Shown: piece after piece, positions 6,610-16,037 of the stretch
How positions within the stretch are numbered: position 1 is the stretch's first letter
Layout of the letters: every line of letters begins with the position of its first letter
NCBI GenBank assembly: GCA_003695725.1
Contig: RFHX01000202.1
Span: forward strand, 1 to 16,037
Direction: 5' to 3'
DNA: 16,037 nucleotides
From: J061 sp003695725 [NCBI: Candidatus Schekmanbacteria bacterium]
GTDB taxonomy: Bacteria; Schekmanbacteria; GWA2-38-11
The notes under the pieces: generated by a model
What the model was told of the DNA's origin: nothing
What the model saw: only the letters and a program-made list of their open reading frames with translations
Databases searched by the model: none
Program-made: the position numbers and the translations under genes

Positions 6610-6618
6610 GAGGAAGAA

Positions 6619-6888
6619 ATGAGCCCTGATTTCGTCATAACTATTTCAGTAGAATCATTAAAGACGGCATTTTTAATTTCTGCGCCAATGCTTTTCTTCG
6701 GCCTTGCGGCAGGTCTATTAATAAGCATATTTCAGGCAGTTACGCAGATTAATGAAATGACGCTTGCAATCGTTCCTAAAATAATTGCTGTTGCCATAGC
6801 CCTCGTTATCTTTGGGTCATGGATGATTAGGTTGATGATAGAGTTTACCAGTAATCTTTTTATCAATATTCCAACATATATCAAATGA
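6619..6888 (+). CDS. fliQ: Flagellar export gate protein FliQ
   Basis: The 89-aa protein has two hydrophobic helices (about 15-37 and 50-72) linked by the conserved FliQ segment FQAVTQINEMTLAIVPKI. It closes the FliPQR pore complex from the outside in the export gate. An AGGAGG (6608-6613) overlapping the fliP stop codon gives a strong start at ATG 6619. The stop overlaps the ATG of fliR (ATGA). Its size is exactly that expected of the family. Confidence 0.96.
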   Translation: MSPDFVITISVESLKTAFLISAPMLFFGLAAGLLISIFQAVTQINEMTLAIVPKIIAVAIALVIFGSWMIRLMIEFTSNLFINIPTYIK

Positions 6889-8762: not shown

Positions 8763-10841
8763 ATGGCAAATGAAGCGCAAACAGCAGTAAGTATTTTTCC
8801 TAATCTTAAAAAAACTGATGCCCTTATGGGCATTGGCGTAATAGCTATACTTGCTATTATGATTATACCACTGCCGCCAACTTTTCTTGACATACTGCTT
8901 GCAACAAATGTTACTTTGGCTTTGGTAATAATACTAATATCTATGTATATATTGAATCCTCTTGATTTTTCTCTTTTCCCAAGTTTGCTCTTAGTCACAA
9001 CCCTTTATCGACTGTCATTAAATGTCGCGTCAACGCGGCTTATTCTCCTTCATGGCAATGAGGGTGTAGCAGCGGCAGGTCATGTAATAAAATCCTTTGG
9101 TATGTTTCTCATCGGAGGAAATTATTTTGTCGGTCTTGTTATTTTCTTAATCCTATCTGTCATAAACTTTGTAGTTATTACCAAAGGTTCAGGACGAATT
9201 GCCGAAGTTGCCGCAAGATTTACATTAGACTCAATGCCCGGCAAGCAAATGAGCATCGATGCTGACCTTAATTCAGGATTAATTACTGAAAAAGAAGCGA
9301 TTCAGAGAAGAGAACAGATCAACAAAGAAGCCGATTTCTATGGCGCTATGGATGGTGCCAGTAAATTCGTCAGAGGAGAAGCAATCGCAGGGCTTGTAAT
9401 AATGGGCATCAATATATTGGGAGGACTTTTAATAGGAATTACACAAAAGAATATGTCTCTTGCTGATGCCGCAAGGTCATATACAATATTAACGATAGGA
9501 GACGGTTTGGTCTCACAAATCCCTGCTCTTATAGTTTCCACAGCAGCAGGCCTCGTAGTAACAAGGGCCGCTTCAGATGAAACCCTCGGTGATGATGTAA
9601 CAAAGCAGATAATTTCTTATCCGAAAGCCGTTGCAATAGCAGGCATCATCCTTTTTTCCTTTGGTCTTATTCCCGGACTTCCTCATCTGCCTTTTTTCAT
9701 TCTTGGCATAGCAGGTGTCATTGCATCTCAATACTTCGTATCATTAGAAAAATCAGAAGAACAGGAAGTGGAAGATGAAGCTCCGGCTGAAAAATCTTTC
9801 GAGGAAACTTTTGAATCTTTACTTTCACCCGATATGCTTGGGCTTGAAGTTGGATACGGAATTATTCCCTTCATTGACACTTCTCAAAATGGTGAACTGC
9901 TTCAACGAATCAAATCGATTAGAAGACAAATGGCTATTGAATTGGGAATAATGATACCTCCGATTCATGTAAAGGACAATCTAAATTTCAAACCCGGTGA
10001 ATACGCAATACTTCTCAAAGGAATAGAGATAGCAAGAGGTAATATGATGTTGGGACACAGTCTTGCATTAGCTGCTGAGACTACAAAGGGCGAAATTGAA
10101 GGAATCCCGACAAAAGACCCAACATTTAATTTACCGGCATTGTGGATACCTGACAGCGATAAAGAGAGAGCACAAATATTGGGTTATACAGTAGTTGACA
10201 TCCCATCTGTTATTGCGACTCATCTTACGGAAACAATCAAAAATTACAGCCATGAGCTTATAGGGCGGCAGGAAGTTCAAAAACTTATCGATGGAATATC
10301 AAAAACACATCCAAAACTTGTTGAAGAACTCATTCCAAATAATCTCACTCTTGGCGGTGTGCAAAAAGTTCTTCAAAATCTCTTGAAGGAACAAATACCA
10401 ATCAAAGATCTAATAACAATACTTGAATGCCTTGCTGATTATTCTCCTTTAACTAAAGATACTGATGTTTTAACAGAGTATGTAAGGCAAGGATTATCGA
10501 GATATATATCACATCGATATAGAGACGAAAACAATGAAATGAAAGTTGCCGTTCTCGACACTTATGTGGAAGAAACCATAAGCAATGCGATACAAAATAC
10601 TTCACAAGGGTCATACCTTGCTCTCGACCCTGAATTTACGCAAAGTTTTCTTGAAAAGATTTCAATGGCTGTCCAAAAATTTAATACTCTGAATCTACAG
10701 CCAATCATACTTTGTTCACCGATAATTCGGTTTCATCTAAAACGGCTGACAGAAAAATTTATCCCAAATTTAGCAGTTATTTCTCACAATGAACTTACAC
10801 CGGACACAAAGATAAACACTATTGAAATAGTGAGTATGTGA
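8763..10841 (+). CDS. flhA: Flagellar type III export protein FlhA
   Basis: The 692-aa protein has about eight membrane helices in residues 20-325. The FHIPEP cytoplasmic loop between them (about 140-205) has the signature TLDSMPGKQMSIDADLN (154-170) and GAMDGASKFVRGE. Next comes GDGLVSQIPALIVSTAAG (246-263), then an acidic linker (about 328-350) and a large cytoplasmic domain (350-692) forming the nonameric FlhA ring. The family uses the proton motive force to drive export and docks substrate-chaperone complexes. The length is typical. It starts 2 bp after flhB with a modest AGGAA (8749-8753) inside the flhB end. The stop overlaps the flhF start. Confidence 0.97.
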   Translation: MANEAQTAVSIFPNLKKTDALMGIGVIAILAIMIIPLPPTFLDILLATNVTLALVIILISMYILNPLDFSLFPSLLLVTTLYRLSLNVASTRLILLHGNEGVAAAGHVIKSFGMFLIGGNYFVGLVIFLILSVINFVVITKGSGRIAEVAARFTLDSMPGKQMSIDADLNSGLITEKEAIQRREQINKEADFYGAMDGASKFVRGEAIAGLVIMGINILGGLLIGITQKNMSLADAARSYTILTIGDGLVSQIPALIVSTAAGLVVTRAASDETLGDDVTKQIISYPKAVAIAGIILFSFGLIPGLPHLPFFILGIAGVIASQYFVSLEKSEEQEVEDEAPAEKSFEETFESLLSPDMLGLEVGYGIIPFIDTSQNGELLQRIKSIRRQMAIELGIMIPPIHVKDNLNFKPGEYAILLKGIEIARGNMMLGHSLALAAETTKGEIEGIPTKDPTFNLPALWIPDSDKERAQILGYTVVDIPSVIATHLTETIKNYSHELIGRQEVQKLIDGISKTHPKLVEELIPNNLTLGGVQKVLQNLLKEQIPIKDLITILECLADYSPLTKDTDVLTEYVRQGLSRYISHRYRDENNEMKVAVLDTYVEETISNAIQNTSQGSYLALDPEFTQSFLEKISMAVQKFNTLNLQPIILCSPIIRFHLKRLTEKFIPNLAVISHNELTPDTKINTIEIVSM

Positions 10842-12022
10842 TGATTTTTAAAACATTTGAAGCAGACAGTTTTGAGAAAGGGCTAAAGCTGGTAAAGAAA
10901 GAAATGGGGCCAGATGCCATCATCGTATCTACAAGGACTAAAAAGCCAAATATTCTAAAAGGGTCCTTTTCTAAAAAAATAGAAATAGTAGCGGCATACG
11001 ATGATGGAATTTATTCAAGTCCGACTTCTTCGCCTCTCTTAAACAAGTCGGATTTATCAAGTGCAAAGACTACGGGAAAAGAATATGGCTATTTCAATAA
11101 AGAAAGAAGAAAGCACTCATACTCTTTTGTTAATCACTTCTCAAAAAGAAATTCTTCTGAAGAAGATGAGAATTTTCTAACTCCTTTATTCGACAGCTAT
11201 TTTAAAAATATAGGAGATTTCGAAAAGTTCTTCAAAACAGTTGGTATTTATGAAGACATTATAGGCATTCTAATCTCTGAGATATCTCCATATACAAGCC
11301 GCAACTATAATCTATCTACTGAATTGAAACAGAAAGCAGTGTTAAACAAGCTTTCTTCACTTATAAATGTCTCATCACCTCTTACAATTCCTGAAAATGG
11401 ACAAAGAATAATAGCATTAACAGGACCAACAGGAGTTGGGAAAACAACGACAATAGCAAAAATTGCGGCAGAAATGCACTTTTTAAAAGGGAAAAAAGTA
11501 GGTCTTGTCAGCATCGATTCATACAGAATTGCCGCAACAAAACAGCTAAAAACATACGCAGATATAATGGATTTAGAGTTGAAAACGGCAGAAACAAAGA
11601 GAGAGCTTCAAAAGGCAATAAAATCCTTTTCCGACAAAGAATTAGTTTTAATCGATACAGCAGGACACAGCCATAAAAATACCGAAAGAATAAAAGAAAT
11701 AAATGAAATGTTAAAAAACATTTTAAATATTGAGACTTGGCTCTTAATAGCCGCTTCGACAAAAACAGAAGATGCCCTAAATATCGTAAATGAACATTTA
11801 GCGATAGGATTATCAGGAATGATTTATACAAAGCTTGATGAAACATCCAGTTATGAAACCCTTTTTAATACATCACTTGTTTCGGGACTTCCGGTATTTT
11901 ATTTCACAACAGGGCAGGAAGTACCGCAGGATATTGAAGAAGCATCGGCAAAGAAGATTGTAAATTCGCTTTTCAACAAGTTTATAAACAATAACTTTAA
12001 CTATAAAACTTTGGAGAATTAA
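10841..12022 (+). CDS. flhF: Flagellar SRP-type GTPase FlhF
   Basis: The start is most likely ATG 10841, sharing one base with the flhA TGA (TGATG). A GTG one codon earlier (10838) is also possible. From the ATG the protein is 393 aa and begins MIFKTFEADSFEKGLKLVK, like other FlhF N-terminal B domains. The variable region (about 60-130) is followed by an N domain and the SRP54-like G domain. Counting from the GTG, GPTGVGKT is at 196-203, DSYRIAATKQL at 227-237, DTAG at 273-276, TKLDE at 331-335 and GQEVPQDI at 359-366. FlhF recruits early flagellar components to the cell pole and acts with FlhG. No Shine-Dalgarno sequence is obvious, so it is probably coupled to flhA. Confidence 0.95.
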   Translation: MIFKTFEADSFEKGLKLVKKEMGPDAIIVSTRTKKPNILKGSFSKKIEIVAAYDDGIYSSPTSSPLLNKSDLSSAKTTGKEYGYFNKERRKHSYSFVNHFSKRNSSEEDENFLTPLFDSYFKNIGDFEKFFKTVGIYEDIIGILISEISPYTSRNYNLSTELKQKAVLNKLSSLINVSSPLTIPENGQRIIALTGPTGVGKTTTIAKIAAEMHFLKGKKVGLVSIDSYRIAATKQLKTYADIMDLELKTAETKRELQKAIKSFSDKELVLIDTAGHSHKNTERIKEINEMLKNILNIETWLLIAASTKTEDALNIVNEHLAIGLSGMIYTKLDETSSYETLFNTSLVSGLPVFYFTTGQEVPQDIEEASAKKIVNSLFNKFINNNFNYKTLEN

Positions 12023-12952
12023 ATGGACCAGGCAACTTCTCTTAGAAAAATAGCTCAATTTTCAAAAACTCAGGCACATCTAAAAAAATTTGGATATTCG
12101 ACTTCTGAAGAAAAAAATAAAAAAGTAGGCATCATTTCTGTCACCAGCGGTAAAGGCGGAGTAGGAAAAACCAATATTGTAGGCAATCTTGCCTACTCGA
12201 TGTCTCTTCTTGGAAAGAAAGTATTGGTTTTAGACGCAGATTTAGGGCTTGGAAATATGGATGTTCTTTTAGGATTGACACCAAAATACAATCTCCTTCA
12301 TGTCTTTATGGGAATGAAAAGGATAGAAGACATAATAATTGAAGGACCGGGAGGAATTCTTATTTTACCTGCCGCATCAGGTGTTGAAGAATTGACAAAT
12401 CTTTCAGATGAACAAAAACTTCACATTTTATCTGAATTTGAACGACTTGATTTAGACATTGATATACTTCTTGTCGATACAAGCGCAGGTATTTCATCGA
12501 ATGTAATGTACTTCAATAGCGCATCACAGCATATCATTGTGATTGCAACACCAGACCCAGCATCAATAACAGATGCTTATGCTTTAATAAAGGTGCTTTC
12601 GTTAAAGTATGCAGAAAAGAAATTCAATCTAATAGTAAACTGTGCAAGTTCAAAGAATGAAGCAAACAATGTTTACGACACTATAAGCAAAGCAACAGAA
12701 GAATTTCTACATGTTTCAGTGAACTATTTAGGATTCATTCCAAGAGATGTGAATTTTATAACATCTATTCGTCAACAAAAACTTATAACGCAGTTCAATC
12801 CTCATTCAGAAGCCAGTTTGGCAATTAAATCTTTAGCCCAGAAAATAGACAGCTTGACAGAGATTTGCGTTACAAAAGGGAATATTCAATTTTTCTGGAA
12901 CAGATTAATCAATGGAATTTCACCTGAAGACAATGACAAAAACATTGCATAA
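12023..12952 (+). CDS. flhG: MinD-like flagellar number regulator FlhG (FleN/YlxH)
   Basis: The 309-aa protein starts directly after the flhF stop behind GGAG. It has a deviant Walker A motif KGGVGKT (44-50), DADLGLGNMD (71-80) and the Walker B-like LLVDTSAGIS (149-158), all typical of ParA/MinD ATPases. The extreme N-terminus, D2-Q-A-T-S-L-R8, matches the DQAxxLR motif by which FlhG stimulates FlhF GTPase activity in Bacillus. FlhG limits flagellar number and in some species also affects the sigma-54 activator of flagellar genes. Chromosome-partition ParA/MinD is unlikely given the flhF neighbour and this motif. The C-terminus (NIQFFWNRLING) is somewhat amphipathic, as in membrane-binding tails. 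Confidence 0.94.
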   Translation: MDQATSLRKIAQFSKTQAHLKKFGYSTSEEKNKKVGIISVTSGKGGVGKTNIVGNLAYSMSLLGKKVLVLDADLGLGNMDVLLGLTPKYNLLHVFMGMKRIEDIIIEGPGGILILPAASGVEELTNLSDEQKLHILSEFERLDLDIDILLVDTSAGISSNVMYFNSASQHIIVIATPDPASITDAYALIKVLSLKYAEKKFNLIVNCASSKNEANNVYDTISKATEEFLHVSVNYLGFIPRDVNFITSIRQQKLITQFNPHSEASLAIKSLAQKIDSLTEICVTKGNIQFFWNRLINGISPEDNDKNIA

Positions 12953-12966
12953 GGGAGAAATCAGCA

Positions 12967-13146
12967 ATGGATAGAATTCCATCACTATTTAGTCTTATAG
13001 CGGCTTTAATAATCATCACTACAGGACTTATCTGTAGATGGTCGCCTGAAACAATAGTTATAAGGACTCTTATATCAATTGCTCTGACTGCTTTATTAGG
13101 AAAAGGATTGTTAAAAATCATACTTTCTTTGGAGAGAACTAAATGA
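12967..13146 (+). CDS. Small 59-aa two-helix membrane protein, function unknown
   Basis: This short gene fills the space between flhG and fliA. The ATG at 12967 is preceded by GGGAGA (12953-12958) with 8-nt spacing. The TGA at 13144-13146 overlaps the fliA ATG (ATGA), the same coupling used elsewhere in the operon. The product starts MDRIPSLFSLIAALIIITTG, forming a first hydrophobic helix (about 7-23). A short polar turn (CRWSPET) and a second helix (about 30-54) with a central Gly-Lys-Gly follow, and it ends in a charged SLERTK. I do not recognise the family. Membrane location is inferred from composition. The ribosome binding site, overlap and strand make it very likely a real gene; a role in FliA control or flagellar placement is only a guess from context. 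Confidence 0.75.
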   Translation: MDRIPSLFSLIAALIIITTGLICRWSPETIVIRTLISIALTALLGKGLLKIILSLERTK

Positions 13147-13910
13147 GCAAAATAAATGCTTATAAAAAAATACAGCCATTTGATGAAGATTTAAAAGAAA
13201 AGACCATAATGGAATATGCTCCAATAATTAAAAACATTGCTCTTAAACTGGCAAAGAGATTCTCTCCACATATAAGTGTCGATGATATGATAAATGCAGG
13301 AGTCATTGGATTAATTGATGCAATCGAGAAGTTCAATGATTCAAAAGGCGTAAAATTTAGAACATATGCTGAATATAGAATTAGAGGCGCTATGCTCGAT
13401 GAGCTTCGTGGTTTTGATTGGGTACCTCGTTCAACTCGAGACAAGATAAAAGAAATGGAAAAAGCTTTTACAAAACTTGAACAAAAATTCTCGCGTACTC
13501 CAACAGATGAAGAGCTTGCAGATGAAATGAAAATAAGTATTGAGGAAGTCCATTCCATCCTTGCAAATGCAGCAAGAAGCACACTGTTAAGCCTTAATGA
13601 AATTGAAGAGAATTCAAACCTAAAAGAAAAAAGATATCTCCCGAGAATATTATTGGAATCAGATGAAGATATCATTTCAAAACTGAATTTAGAAAATCTT
13701 AAAACCATATTGGCAGAACTAATCGATAATCTTCCAGAAAAGGAAAGGTTGGTAATCTCTCTTTACTACTATGAAGATGTAACTATGAGGGAAATTGGAG
13801 AAATACTCGGTATCACGGAATCAAGAGTGTCTCAAATTCACTCAAAAGCTTTATTTACACTAAAAACAAAAATAAAGAATAGTTTCAACAATAGAAAAAA
13901 TAGAAGTTAA
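13143..13910 (+). CDS. fliA: Flagellar sigma factor sigma-28 (FliA/WhiG family)
   Basis: The 255-aa protein has sigma region 2 at about 22-92: YAPIIKNIAL, VDDMINAGVIGLIDAIEKF, VKFRTYAEYRIRGAMLDELR, and the FliA-specific DWVPRSTRDK at 92-101. Region 3 follows (about 102-150, with TPTDEELADEM). Region 4 (about 190-245) has LPEKERLVISLYYYEDVTMREIGEILGI and a helix-turn-helix that includes TESRVSQIHSKAL. These features are standard for sigma-28, which transcribes flagellin and chemotaxis genes and is usually held by FlgM until the hook is complete. GGAGAG (13130-13135) lies 7 nt before the ATG, and the start overlaps the stop of the upstream small gene. No flgM is present here. Confidence 0.95.
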   Translation: MSKINAYKKIQPFDEDLKEKTIMEYAPIIKNIALKLAKRFSPHISVDDMINAGVIGLIDAIEKFNDSKGVKFRTYAEYRIRGAMLDELRGFDWVPRSTRDKIKEMEKAFTKLEQKFSRTPTDEELADEMKISIEEVHSILANAARSTLLSLNEIEENSNLKEKRYLPRILLESDEDIISKLNLENLKTILAELIDNLPEKERLVISLYYYEDVTMREIGEILGITESRVSQIHSKALFTLKTKIKNSFNNRKNRS

Positions 13911-13993: not shown

Positions 13994-14881
13994 ATGGACA
14001 AGAATGAAGTCAAAAAGAAAATTGAAGAACATCTTGAAACAGGAGAAGAATTGCCATTCTTTTCTGTAACAGTAAAAAAGCTGCTTGAACTTACAGAAGA
14101 CCCTGAAACTTCACTTTCAGAAATCGTCAGCGCAATGGACACTTCTGTAGCTGCTACGACTCTCAAAATGGCAAACTCCGTATATTTTGGCGGAAGCAGT
14201 TTTAGGAATATCAAATCACTTGAACATGCCATAATGGTTATAGGTTTCGACAGTTTAAGAGAGCTTGCCTTCAACGCTTCTCTCATTTCAATGTTCAAAG
14301 AAGATGATGAAAATGTCAAAAAGAATATCCAAGCTCATCTTGAGCACTGTTTTCAGGTCGCCATATCATCAAAACTCTTGGCTTCTCTTTTCAATTATGA
14401 AAATAAAGCTCAATGTTATGTAGCAGGCCTCCTTCATGATATAGGCAAGCTGGCAATTGAAAGATTTTTCCGCAACGAATCTGCCCAAATAAAAGAATTG
14501 CAAGAAAAGGAAGGTATTTCTGATATTGAAGCAGAAAGAAGAATTCTTGGCTTAGATCATATGGAAATAGGCGGCATAATGGGTGATAAATGGAATCTTC
14601 CTGAAAGCATTGTTGAAGCAATCCGCTGTCATTCTAACATTGAAAAAGCTGAAATAGACAAGAAATTTACTTGCATCATATATCTGTCAGATGAGCTTTG
14701 CAAAAAAACTGAAGGAATATTCGACTTTAGATTGGTCAATTCACTTATTAATAATGATATAAAAGAATTCTTCCCTCAACAGGACAAACTTGAAGATGAT
14801 TATTTACAAGATCAATTTGCAGCAAAGTTTGCTCAAGAAACAGAAAATGTATCTTACATAGTAGGTTCAATGCTCAAATAA
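13994..14881 (+). CDS. HDOD-domain signalling protein
   Basis: The 295-aa protein has an HDOD domain over about 20-215. The N-terminal helices carry LPFFSVTVKKLLELTEDPE (20-38), LKMANSVYFGG (57-67) and the typical HAIMVIGFDSLRELAF (78-93). The HD-like core then shows H118, GLLHDIGKLAIE (145-156, H148-D149), H189 in LDHMEIGG, KWNLPESIVEAIRCH (199-213) and SDELC with D233. HDOD proteins are regulatory and commonly found near chemotaxis, flagellar and cyclic-di-GMP genes; their substrates are mostly unknown. Many copies have lost catalytic HD residues, while this one keeps most of the HD pattern. AGGAG (13980-13984) precedes the ATG. It follows fliA on the same strand and is probably co-transcribed. 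Confidence 0.88.
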   Translation: MDKNEVKKKIEEHLETGEELPFFSVTVKKLLELTEDPETSLSEIVSAMDTSVAATTLKMANSVYFGGSSFRNIKSLEHAIMVIGFDSLRELAFNASLISMFKEDDENVKKNIQAHLEHCFQVAISSKLLASLFNYENKAQCYVAGLLHDIGKLAIERFFRNESAQIKELQEKEGISDIEAERRILGLDHMEIGGIMGDKWNLPESIVEAIRCHSNIEKAEIDKKFTCIIYLSDELCKKTEGIFDFRLVNSLINNDIKEFFPQQDKLEDDYLQDQFAAKFAQETENVSYIVGSMLK

Positions 14882-14897
14882 AAAATGAGATATCAAA

Positions 14898-16037
14898 ATG
14901 ATGAAAAAAACGAAGAGAGCCATATACTTAACTATCGTTTTTTCATTTCTTTTGATATTGATTTTTAATTCCTTATTCTACCTTTTAAAGCCTACGAATT
15001 TTTTGACCTTTTTCATTTTTAACTTACTATTCTTGTCATTGTTAGTTTCTCTTTCTATAAAAATGCTAAATCTCGCACTTTTCAATCCTCTAAGTCAACT
15101 CAGGGAAAAATTCAGTAAAGCTCCAGAAAAAAATGACAATAAAAGAACATCTTCCGATGAAGCCGTCACCAAAAACTTTGGACTTAAAGAATTTGAAAAT
15201 GAAATCAATTCTTACATTTCCTTTATCAAGAAAAAGTCGCGATTAGAGACAACAAATCAAATTGTTTCAACAATTTTAAGCAAATTAGATGAAATTGAGG
15301 GATACGACTTTAATCATGAGAAGGATTTAATTTCTATCTTTAATGAAAATTCAGAAAAAGCTATGAAGCTACTTGATGAAACTTTAGGAATAAGCAGTGA
15401 AGAGGTAAAAAAACTTTCTGAAGCGGCATCGATTGCGACACAAAGCCTTAAAACTTTAAGCGAAACAATTGATGGAATCAACAAAATTGCAAGCTCTTTT
15501 GAGGAAACAGAATTTTCTATATCGAGCTTGTACAAAAAAAATAGCGAAATCAAAGAATTGTTATCAGAAATTGAAGGTCAGATTAATTTTTCAGAACATC
15601 TTGCCCTAAATTCAGCTATTGAAGCGGCAAGGTTTGGTGAAAAAGGGCGCAGTTTTACTGTAATAAGTGGTGAAATAAAGAAACTTGCCAAAGAAATTTC
15701 CACAATAACAAAGACTATTACAAAGCAAATCGACGATACCGCTGAAGAAATTCAAAATGCAGTTGATAGACTGGACAATGGAAACAGAAAAGTTGAAAGA
15801 GGAATTTCTTTGGGAAATAACTCAGCAAAATCAATGCTAAAACTTGTTGATGTCATTGATTCAGCAAAAGATGTATCGTCGCAGATAAGCAAGAAGATTC
15901 AAATGTGTATGGCAACCTTTGAAAAAGGATATGACCTATCTGAATTCAACAGAAAATATCGTGAAAACATAAAAAAGATAAAAAATTCCCTTTCTGAAAT
16001 ACTCGATGAAAATAAACCTAAAGACCAAGAAAAAGAG
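14898..16037 (+). CDS. MCP-like signalling protein, 5' part (3' end outside window)
   Basis: The frame is open from ATG 14898 (or ATG 14901) to the window edge, giving 380 residues. Two transmembrane helices (about 7-30 and 35-60) are joined by only about five residues, so there is no periplasmic sensor. A short linker (NPLSQLREKF) vaguely like the start of HAMP leads into a long coiled coil. The hairpin tip reads LALNSAIEAARFGEKGRSF (235-253), close to the canonical MCP LALNAAIEAARAGExGRGF. The stretch before it is unusual (INFSEH instead of the usual QTNLLAL-type sequence). It may bind CheA-CheW weakly or serve a non-chemotactic role. It follows the HDOD gene by 16 bp with only a weak ribosome binding site. 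Confidence 0.8.
   Translation, partial: MMKKTKRAIYLTIVFSFLLILIFNSLFYLLKPTNFLTFFIFNLLFLSLLVSLSIKMLNLALFNPLSQLREKFSKAPEKNDNKRTSSDEAVTKNFGLKEFENEINSYISFIKKKSRLETTNQIVSTILSKLDEIEGYDFNHEKDLISIFNENSEKAMKLLDETLGISSEEVKKLSEAASIATQSLKTLSETIDGINKIASSFEETEFSISSLYKKNSEIKELLSEIEGQINFSEHLALNSAIEAARFGEKGRSFTVISGEIKKLAKEISTITKTITKQIDDTAEEIQNAVDRLDNGNRKVERGISLGNNSAKSMLKLVDVIDSAKDVSSQISKKIQMCMATFEKGYDLSEFNRKYRENIKKIKNSLSEILDENKPKDQEKE

Follow-up and report, generated by a model that had tools for sequence, protein, structure and literature searches.

The small open reading frame (ORF) at positions 12967-13146 of the window (the whole 16,037-nucleotide stretch of contig RFHX01000202.1, from a Candidatus Schekmanbacteria genome) is confirmed by comparative sequence evidence as a genuine, conserved gene for a predicted two-helix membrane protein. 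Given the published work on FlgV, we consider it very probable that this gene encodes a minimal FlgV-like protein, made up of the membrane hairpin without a cytoplasmic tail and having a FlgV-type role at the junction of the MS and C rings of the flagellar motor. Most likely the gene is not new in kind, being probably a minimal FlgV-like motor protein; what is mildly new is the tailless form, its recurrence, and a natural control provided by genomes that have sigma28 and FlgM without FlhA or FliF matches.

The gene between flhG and fliA

The features of the locus to which we refer are as follows.

10838..12022, + strand: flhF, SRP-type GTPase, named from its position and SRP54 GTPase domain
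12023..12952, + strand: flhG, MinD-like ATPase, named from its position and ParA/CbiA domains
12953..12957, + strand: Shine-Dalgarno sequence GGGAG of the small gene, directly 3' of the flhG stop, read from the sequence
12967..13146, + strand: probable flgV-like gene with an ATG start, for a 59-aa two-helix membrane protein without a cytoplasmic tail, called on profile evidence
12976..13032, + strand: predicted transmembrane helix 1, residues 4-22 (approximate), from hydropathy and an AlphaFold2 helix at 4-21
13048..13050, + strand: Glu28, acidic residue at the start of helix 2, common to G001
13054..13125, + strand: predicted transmembrane helix 2, residues 30-53 (approximate), from hydropathy and an AlphaFold2 helix at 27-58
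13063..13065, + strand: Arg33 (R33), the family signature arginine in helix 2, from the alignment of 45 proteins
13131..13136, + strand: fliA Shine-Dalgarno sequence GGAGAG, within the last codons of the small gene, read from the sequence
13143..13146, + strand: ATGA, stop of the small gene overlapping the fliA start, the same in G001
13143..13910, + strand: fliA, flagellar sigma factor 28, with Sigma70 regions 2, 3 and 4 and a score above the TIGR02479 cut-off

A gap of 14 nt separates the flhG stop at 12952 from the small ORF; GGGAG lies 9 nt upstream of the ATG of the latter, and GGAGAG lies 6 nt upstream of the fliA ATG at 13143. Hydropathy places two helices in the product (19-residue windows starting at residues 4 and 35), and so does an AlphaFold2 model of modest confidence (helices 4-21 and 27-58; mean pLDDT 66.8, pTM 0.38; alignment of 3 sequences), in which the protein is two helices, a short turn and little else, almost without a soluble part. 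The initial annotation had described a 59-aa ORF between flhG and fliA with its own ribosome site, two membrane helices and a stop overlapping the fliA start; the ORF and its site are present, the helices are borne out at the modest confidence just given, and the overlap is seen both in the window and in G001. No Pfam model at E up to 1 and no NCBIfam model at E up to 0.1 matches the protein, so that a small flgV-like gene of this sort is easily overlooked. Downstream of fliA the window also carries a gene for an HDOD-domain protein (13994-14881) and an open-ended ORF (14898-16037) with N-terminal hydrophobic stretches, which is chemoreceptor-like by eye only.

Our sample of the phylum consisted of four genomes: that of the window (G000), G001 from the same family, and G002 and G003 from another family. 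At the same flhG-fliA junction G001 has a two-helix counterpart, an ORF of 59 aa that opens with TTG and has the same ATGA overlap, with GGGAG 8 nt upstream of the TTG and with GGAG before fliA at the same distance as in the window. The two small proteins align without gaps over their full length at 39-41% identity (23 of 59 residues identical, taking each start codon at face value, and 41 of 59 BLOSUM-positive), and their BLOSUM sum of 122 compares with a mean of -27.3 and a maximum of 39 in 20,000 shuffles; the neighbouring flhG and fliA products are 71% and 62% identical, respectively. When 60 genomes were searched with the 59-aa sequence, the matches were the window itself, the G001 copy (G001:C3) as the one real relative, and another 12 rows (E 0.004 to 0.77), which we discarded because their fetched flanks contained neither a FliA nor an FlhG match.

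We also weighed the possibility that there is no gene here at all and that a hydrophobic frame merely happens to be open between flhG and fliA, to which we attach a practically negligible probability. The ORF has only 59 codons, the antisense frame over it is also open in both genomes, and the codon-position signal is saturated (30/20/27 differences between the window and G001 at codon positions 1/2/3 over 59 codons, which is near saturation and comes from a single relative). Conservation of the antisense frame is lower, however, with a BLOSUM sum of 66, and it does not match the hairpin-family profile described below (-0.2 bits). A chance frame would also have to be reconciled with a copy of equal length and 39-41% identity in G001 and with the profile scores, which no class-preserving shuffle attains and which make the small ORF the best match in its whole genome.

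A hairpin family and its likeness to FlgV

FliA (TIGR02479) was found in 178 of 386 surveyed genomes. We examined 156 FliA loci, including 30 and 100 further TIGR02479 matches taken in listed order and leaving out L015, L016 and L068 (duplicates) and L042 (no FliA match at the cut). At 43 of these loci a two-helix small ORF (45-260 codons, with a stop from about 300 nt before to 45 nt after the fliA start region) ends close upstream of fliA, and the two-helix design that the initial annotation sought at related junctions in ORFs of 50-70 codons is, in this broader size range, not confined to the window. An FlhG match lies upstream for 24 of the 43 and is not seen for the other 19, in fetched stretches of 1.5-3 kb from which a more distant FlhG would escape.

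Together with L172 and L114 (one helix each by our cut; added by eye), and with L151 trimmed to a later start, these proteins make up an alignment of 45 that centres on one arginine in helix 2 (R in 33 of 45, K in 4). R33 of the window protein stands in this column, which is the most conserved of those tallied even though position and hydropathy were the sole criteria of choice for 43 of the 45 members. The column of Glu28, by comparison, has E in only 3 of the 45 rows, window and G001 included, and K46 near the C-terminal end of helix 2, again common to these two, falls in a variable column (K in 5 and R in 4 of 45). Scattered weak matches to Pfam and NCBIfam (best E 3.1e-4 and 1.4e-4, respectively) were found for the 45-member set, with none of the 25 families listed for each matching more than 3 members. 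A sequence search of the PDB with the family profile at E up to 1 gave 24 sequences (best E 0.013), of which a single one, a Motility protein A chain (E 0.53), carries a flagellar name.

A profile was built from 43 of the 45 aligned proteins, with the window and G001 left out; 41 of its rows come from the 386 surveyed genomes, and L024 and L035, loci of named Bacillota, supply the other two. We found that: (i) among 5508 frames the window ORF matched at 30.4 bits (E 8.2e-8) and the G001 copy at E 6.4e-4, while three frames from flagellar loci, not used in building the profile (L126, L157 and L127), matched at E 4e-7 to 4.6e-6 and the first frame without a claim to the family came at E 0.015; (ii) the window protein alone scored 28.3 bits, with a maximum of 14.3 in 2000 shuffles that preserve hydrophobicity class and of 12.0 in the 1992 full shuffles scored; (iii) the window ORF was the top match in its whole genome (E 5.7e-6, the next at 0.37), and the G001 counterpart was likewise top in its own but weak (E 0.022), short of the 0.001 cut that we used for the 386 genomes; and (iv) a profile-profile comparison of the window with the family, a single comparison, gave E 4.5e-8 and a probability of 94.9.

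Applied to the 386 genomes at E <= 0.001, the profile has matches in 56 of the 178 with FliA (TIGR02479, E <= 1e-40) and in 4 of the 208 without, a tally that is partly circular and not independent because 41 of the 43 profile rows stem from the same genomes; the 5508-frame search and the shuffle tests are cleaner. For fifty of the 56 matches a listed fliA lies on the same strand no more than 4 kb away, and the remaining six comprise L192-L195, directly 3' of flhG, and those of G020 and G167. Of the four matches without FliA, three form part of frames 403-794 codons long. The fourth is L191 (G008:C5:289000-301000), where a flgV-like frame stands between flhG and a partial fliA match and where fliP, flhB and flhA of the flagellar operon match in pieces, owing to decay or sequencing errors.

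Cj0062c and HP1033 are presumably genes that likewise lie between flhG and fliA. By published accounts FlgV was first tied to motility and to FliF in C. jejuni; its ring in the motor came to light only in 2023-2024. Botting et al. 2023 (PMC10655999) describe FlgV of H. pylori and C. jejuni as predicted two-helix membrane proteins encoded between flhG and fliA, and report that the H. pylori protein forms a ring at the MS/C-ring junction, that the C. jejuni protein co-immunoprecipitates with FliF and that flgV deletion results in fewer flagella and less motility in soft agar. They also report that flgV loss in H. pylori leads to hypoflagellation with flagella that are not misplaced, and suggest co-operation with FlhF. 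Zamba-Campero et al. 2024 (PMC11607428) define a Type-1 FlgV, present in many phyla (Spirochaetota, Bacillota, PVC and others), by two helices with an intramembrane arginine in helix 2, an acidic residue at the start of that helix and a polar residue toward its C-terminal end, followed by a variable polar cytoplasmic tail with a conserved hydrophobic/basic peptide at its C-terminus; its gene is described as invariably part of the flagellar superoperon, close to flhFG and sigma28. They also state that flgV occurs in every spirochaete genome. Borrelia has no sigma28; there the same authors find FlgV in the basal body and fewer and shorter filaments upon its loss, and propose that the C-terminal peptide tethers factors.

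The window protein resembles Type-1 FlgV in its two-helix hairpin (by hydropathy and AlphaFold2), in the helix-2 arginine (R33) and in the acidic residue (Glu28) at the helix-2 start, and its gene stands at the junction of flhF-flhG with sigma28. K46 is a candidate for the polar residue expected toward the C-terminal end of helix 2, although its column varies across the 45 proteins. It differs in having neither the polar cytoplasmic tail nor the C-terminal hydrophobic/basic peptide and in its size, 59 aa versus the 159 aa of the 480-bp BB0268 ORF; because the tail is missing, we call it a tailless FlgV-like variant and not a textbook Type-1 protein. The Type-2 FlgV of Campylobacter and Helicobacter (PMC10655999) shares the two helices and the gene position between flhG and fliA, but is longer (118 aa in C. 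jejuni and 104 aa in H. pylori, with a C-terminal domain), has a helix-1 GFFxG motif that the window protein does not, and, as described in PMC11607428, is without the helix-2 arginine. As the named FlgV proteins are known to us by description, we propose the link to published FlgV from the architecture, the helix-2 arginine, the gene position and the range of phyla reported. FliQ, too, is a small two-helix flagellar membrane protein; we rejected this identity for the small ORF, which has no Pfam match up to E 1, as the window contains a separate FliQ-like gene (frame 6610-6885, named by eye and position) that scores 2.2 bits against the hairpin-family profile.

Sigma28, FlhG and the flagellum

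Adjacency to fliA suggests a different scenario, in which the small ORF regulates sigma28, either anchoring FliA at the membrane or partnering it like an anti-sigma factor, or else serving as a leader ORF that sets fliA translation. We think this very improbable. Its attraction is that the stop overlaps the fliA start and that the fliA Shine-Dalgarno site lies inside the ORF, that linkage to fliA is close in other lineages as well, and that pairing is predicted for four of the six fliA ribosome-site bases in G000 and, with that site open, for the fliA start codon in G001; in view of this pairing some coupling effect is possible. However, the paired bases differ between G000 and G001, so that we see no shared RNA switch, and the predicted fold at the fliA start is no better than that of shuffled sequence (z -0.41; 71 of 200 shuffles fold as well). 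As fliA also has its own ribosome site, a governor of fliA translation is not favored. Nor is an anti-sigma factor or FliA anchor, since FlgM, the usual anti-sigma factor, is present (E 1e-14 in G000), a second sigma28 copy has no such ORF upstream and FlgV is reported to act in Borrelia, without sigma28 (PMC11607428); the near absence of a soluble part also argues against it.

The small gene also adjoins flhG, and its product could be a membrane partner of FlhF/FlhG that places or counts flagella, acting before motor construction. In keeping with this, an FlhG match lies upstream of the 24 two-helix ORFs mentioned above, all five profile matches that we followed up (L191-L195) are directly 3' of flhG, one of them (L192) having no fliA within 10 kb and its listed fliA 16 kb off, and H. 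pylori flgV mutants are hypoflagellated, with co-operation with FlhF suggested by the authors (PMC10655999). We nevertheless regard such a partnership as the protein's actual role as improbable, given that: (i) no small ORF separates flhG from fliA in the second such pair of G000, G001 or G003; (ii) the other 19 two-helix ORFs adjoin fliA with no FlhG match in the 1.5-3 kb fetched; (iii) the published location of FlgV is the MS/C ring; and (iv) H. pylori flgV mutants keep their flagellar placement (PMC10655999). Partnership with FlhF/FlhG as one part of FlgV function is possible. The initial annotation had proposed a membrane partner of FlhG or FliA, or a governor of fliA dosage, and these ideas have become less likely because architecture, R33 and gene position match the published Type-1 FlgV.

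The preferred reading, a FlgV-like motor protein, can be set against the distribution of the gene in the four genomes of the phylum. G002 and G003 have no FlhA match (E <= 1e-20) and no YscJ/FliF match (E <= 1e-5), G003 being only 70% complete, and are therefore probably without a flagellum. Both retain a sigma28 homologue and an FlgM match, which in G003 is on the same contig as sigma28, about 1.2 kb off, and in G002 on another contig; FlhG adjoins sigma28 in G003 and is not found there in the stretch read of G002. Neither genome has a small flgV-like ORF, the only profile matches being inside frames of 265-773 codons (E 0.0062 or worse), although part of one 427-codon frame in G003 outscores the G001 copy (E 0.0062 versus 0.022). 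In G000 and G001 there is a second sigma28 with FlhG directly upstream. This pattern in four genomes suggests that the hairpin tracks the flagellum and not sigma28 or FlhG as such.

The locus of the second sigma28 is found in all four genomes (L019/L183 in G000:C322, L020/L180 in G001:C15, L018/L182 in G002 and L017/L184 in G003). Upstream lies a sigma54-type response regulator (identified by Pfam in G001 and G002 and by inspection in G000 and G003) and, in three of the four, G002 being the exception, an FlhG paralogue; downstream lies a kinase-like gene (HisKA in G002; no Pfam match at 1e-5 in G001). FlgM is close by in G001 and G003 and on another contig in G000 and G002. It looks like a sigma28/FlgM switch surviving without a flagellum.

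Tailless forms and a possible mechanism

The window protein continues for 26 residues after R33, with about six lying past the end of helix 2, and the G001 protein is identical in this. Setting the cut for a tailless form at 31 or fewer residues after the signature column (our own choice), 11 of the 45 proteins, spanning ten family codes, are tailless, one of them (L075) without the arginine; the longest has 184 residues there. On a FliA tree of 155 rows (L166 omitted as too short; L126, L127 and L157 counted as tailed) the tailed/tailless label takes five changes, at least two of which are forced by well-supported branches; this is a quick tree with no mixture model and carries a long-branch warning, one long branch being tailless (L096). 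The tree is compatible with gain as well as with loss of the tail. Among the FlgV papers listed, no title or abstract opening is on a tailless FlgV, and in the available portions of PMC12880188 and PMC11870540 FlgV appears only in the reference list.

A plausible mechanism is that the protein forms a helical hairpin across the inner membrane, with both ends probably in the cytoplasm, and that copies of this tailless protein assemble, by analogy with FlgV, into a ring at the junction of the MS ring (FliF) and the C ring. Such a ring would contact the membrane helices of FliF and aid MS-ring assembly and filament formation, the tailless version doing the same job through membrane contacts alone. 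While the location is known from relatives, we infer this role for the present protein from hairpin homology. More tentatively, and with somewhat less than even confidence, we suggest that tailless FlgV recurs in many lineages and thereby reveals the membrane hairpin, rather than the tail or its terminal peptide, as the working core, with the arginine helix packing on FliF in the membrane, and the tail an optional tethering add-on in some phyla. The tailless forms bear on how FlgV works: natural examples from ten family codes would show which half of the protein is indispensable, and the 59-aa form would allow packing against FliF to be tested on a very small protein.

By eye, four long-tailed members (L044, L065, L079 and L134) have a similar short amphipathic peptide at their end, preceded by an acidic stretch (AQAIRTLL in L044 and AKAVRHL in L134 are two such peptides). 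This may be the conserved C-terminal peptide of Type-1 FlgV.
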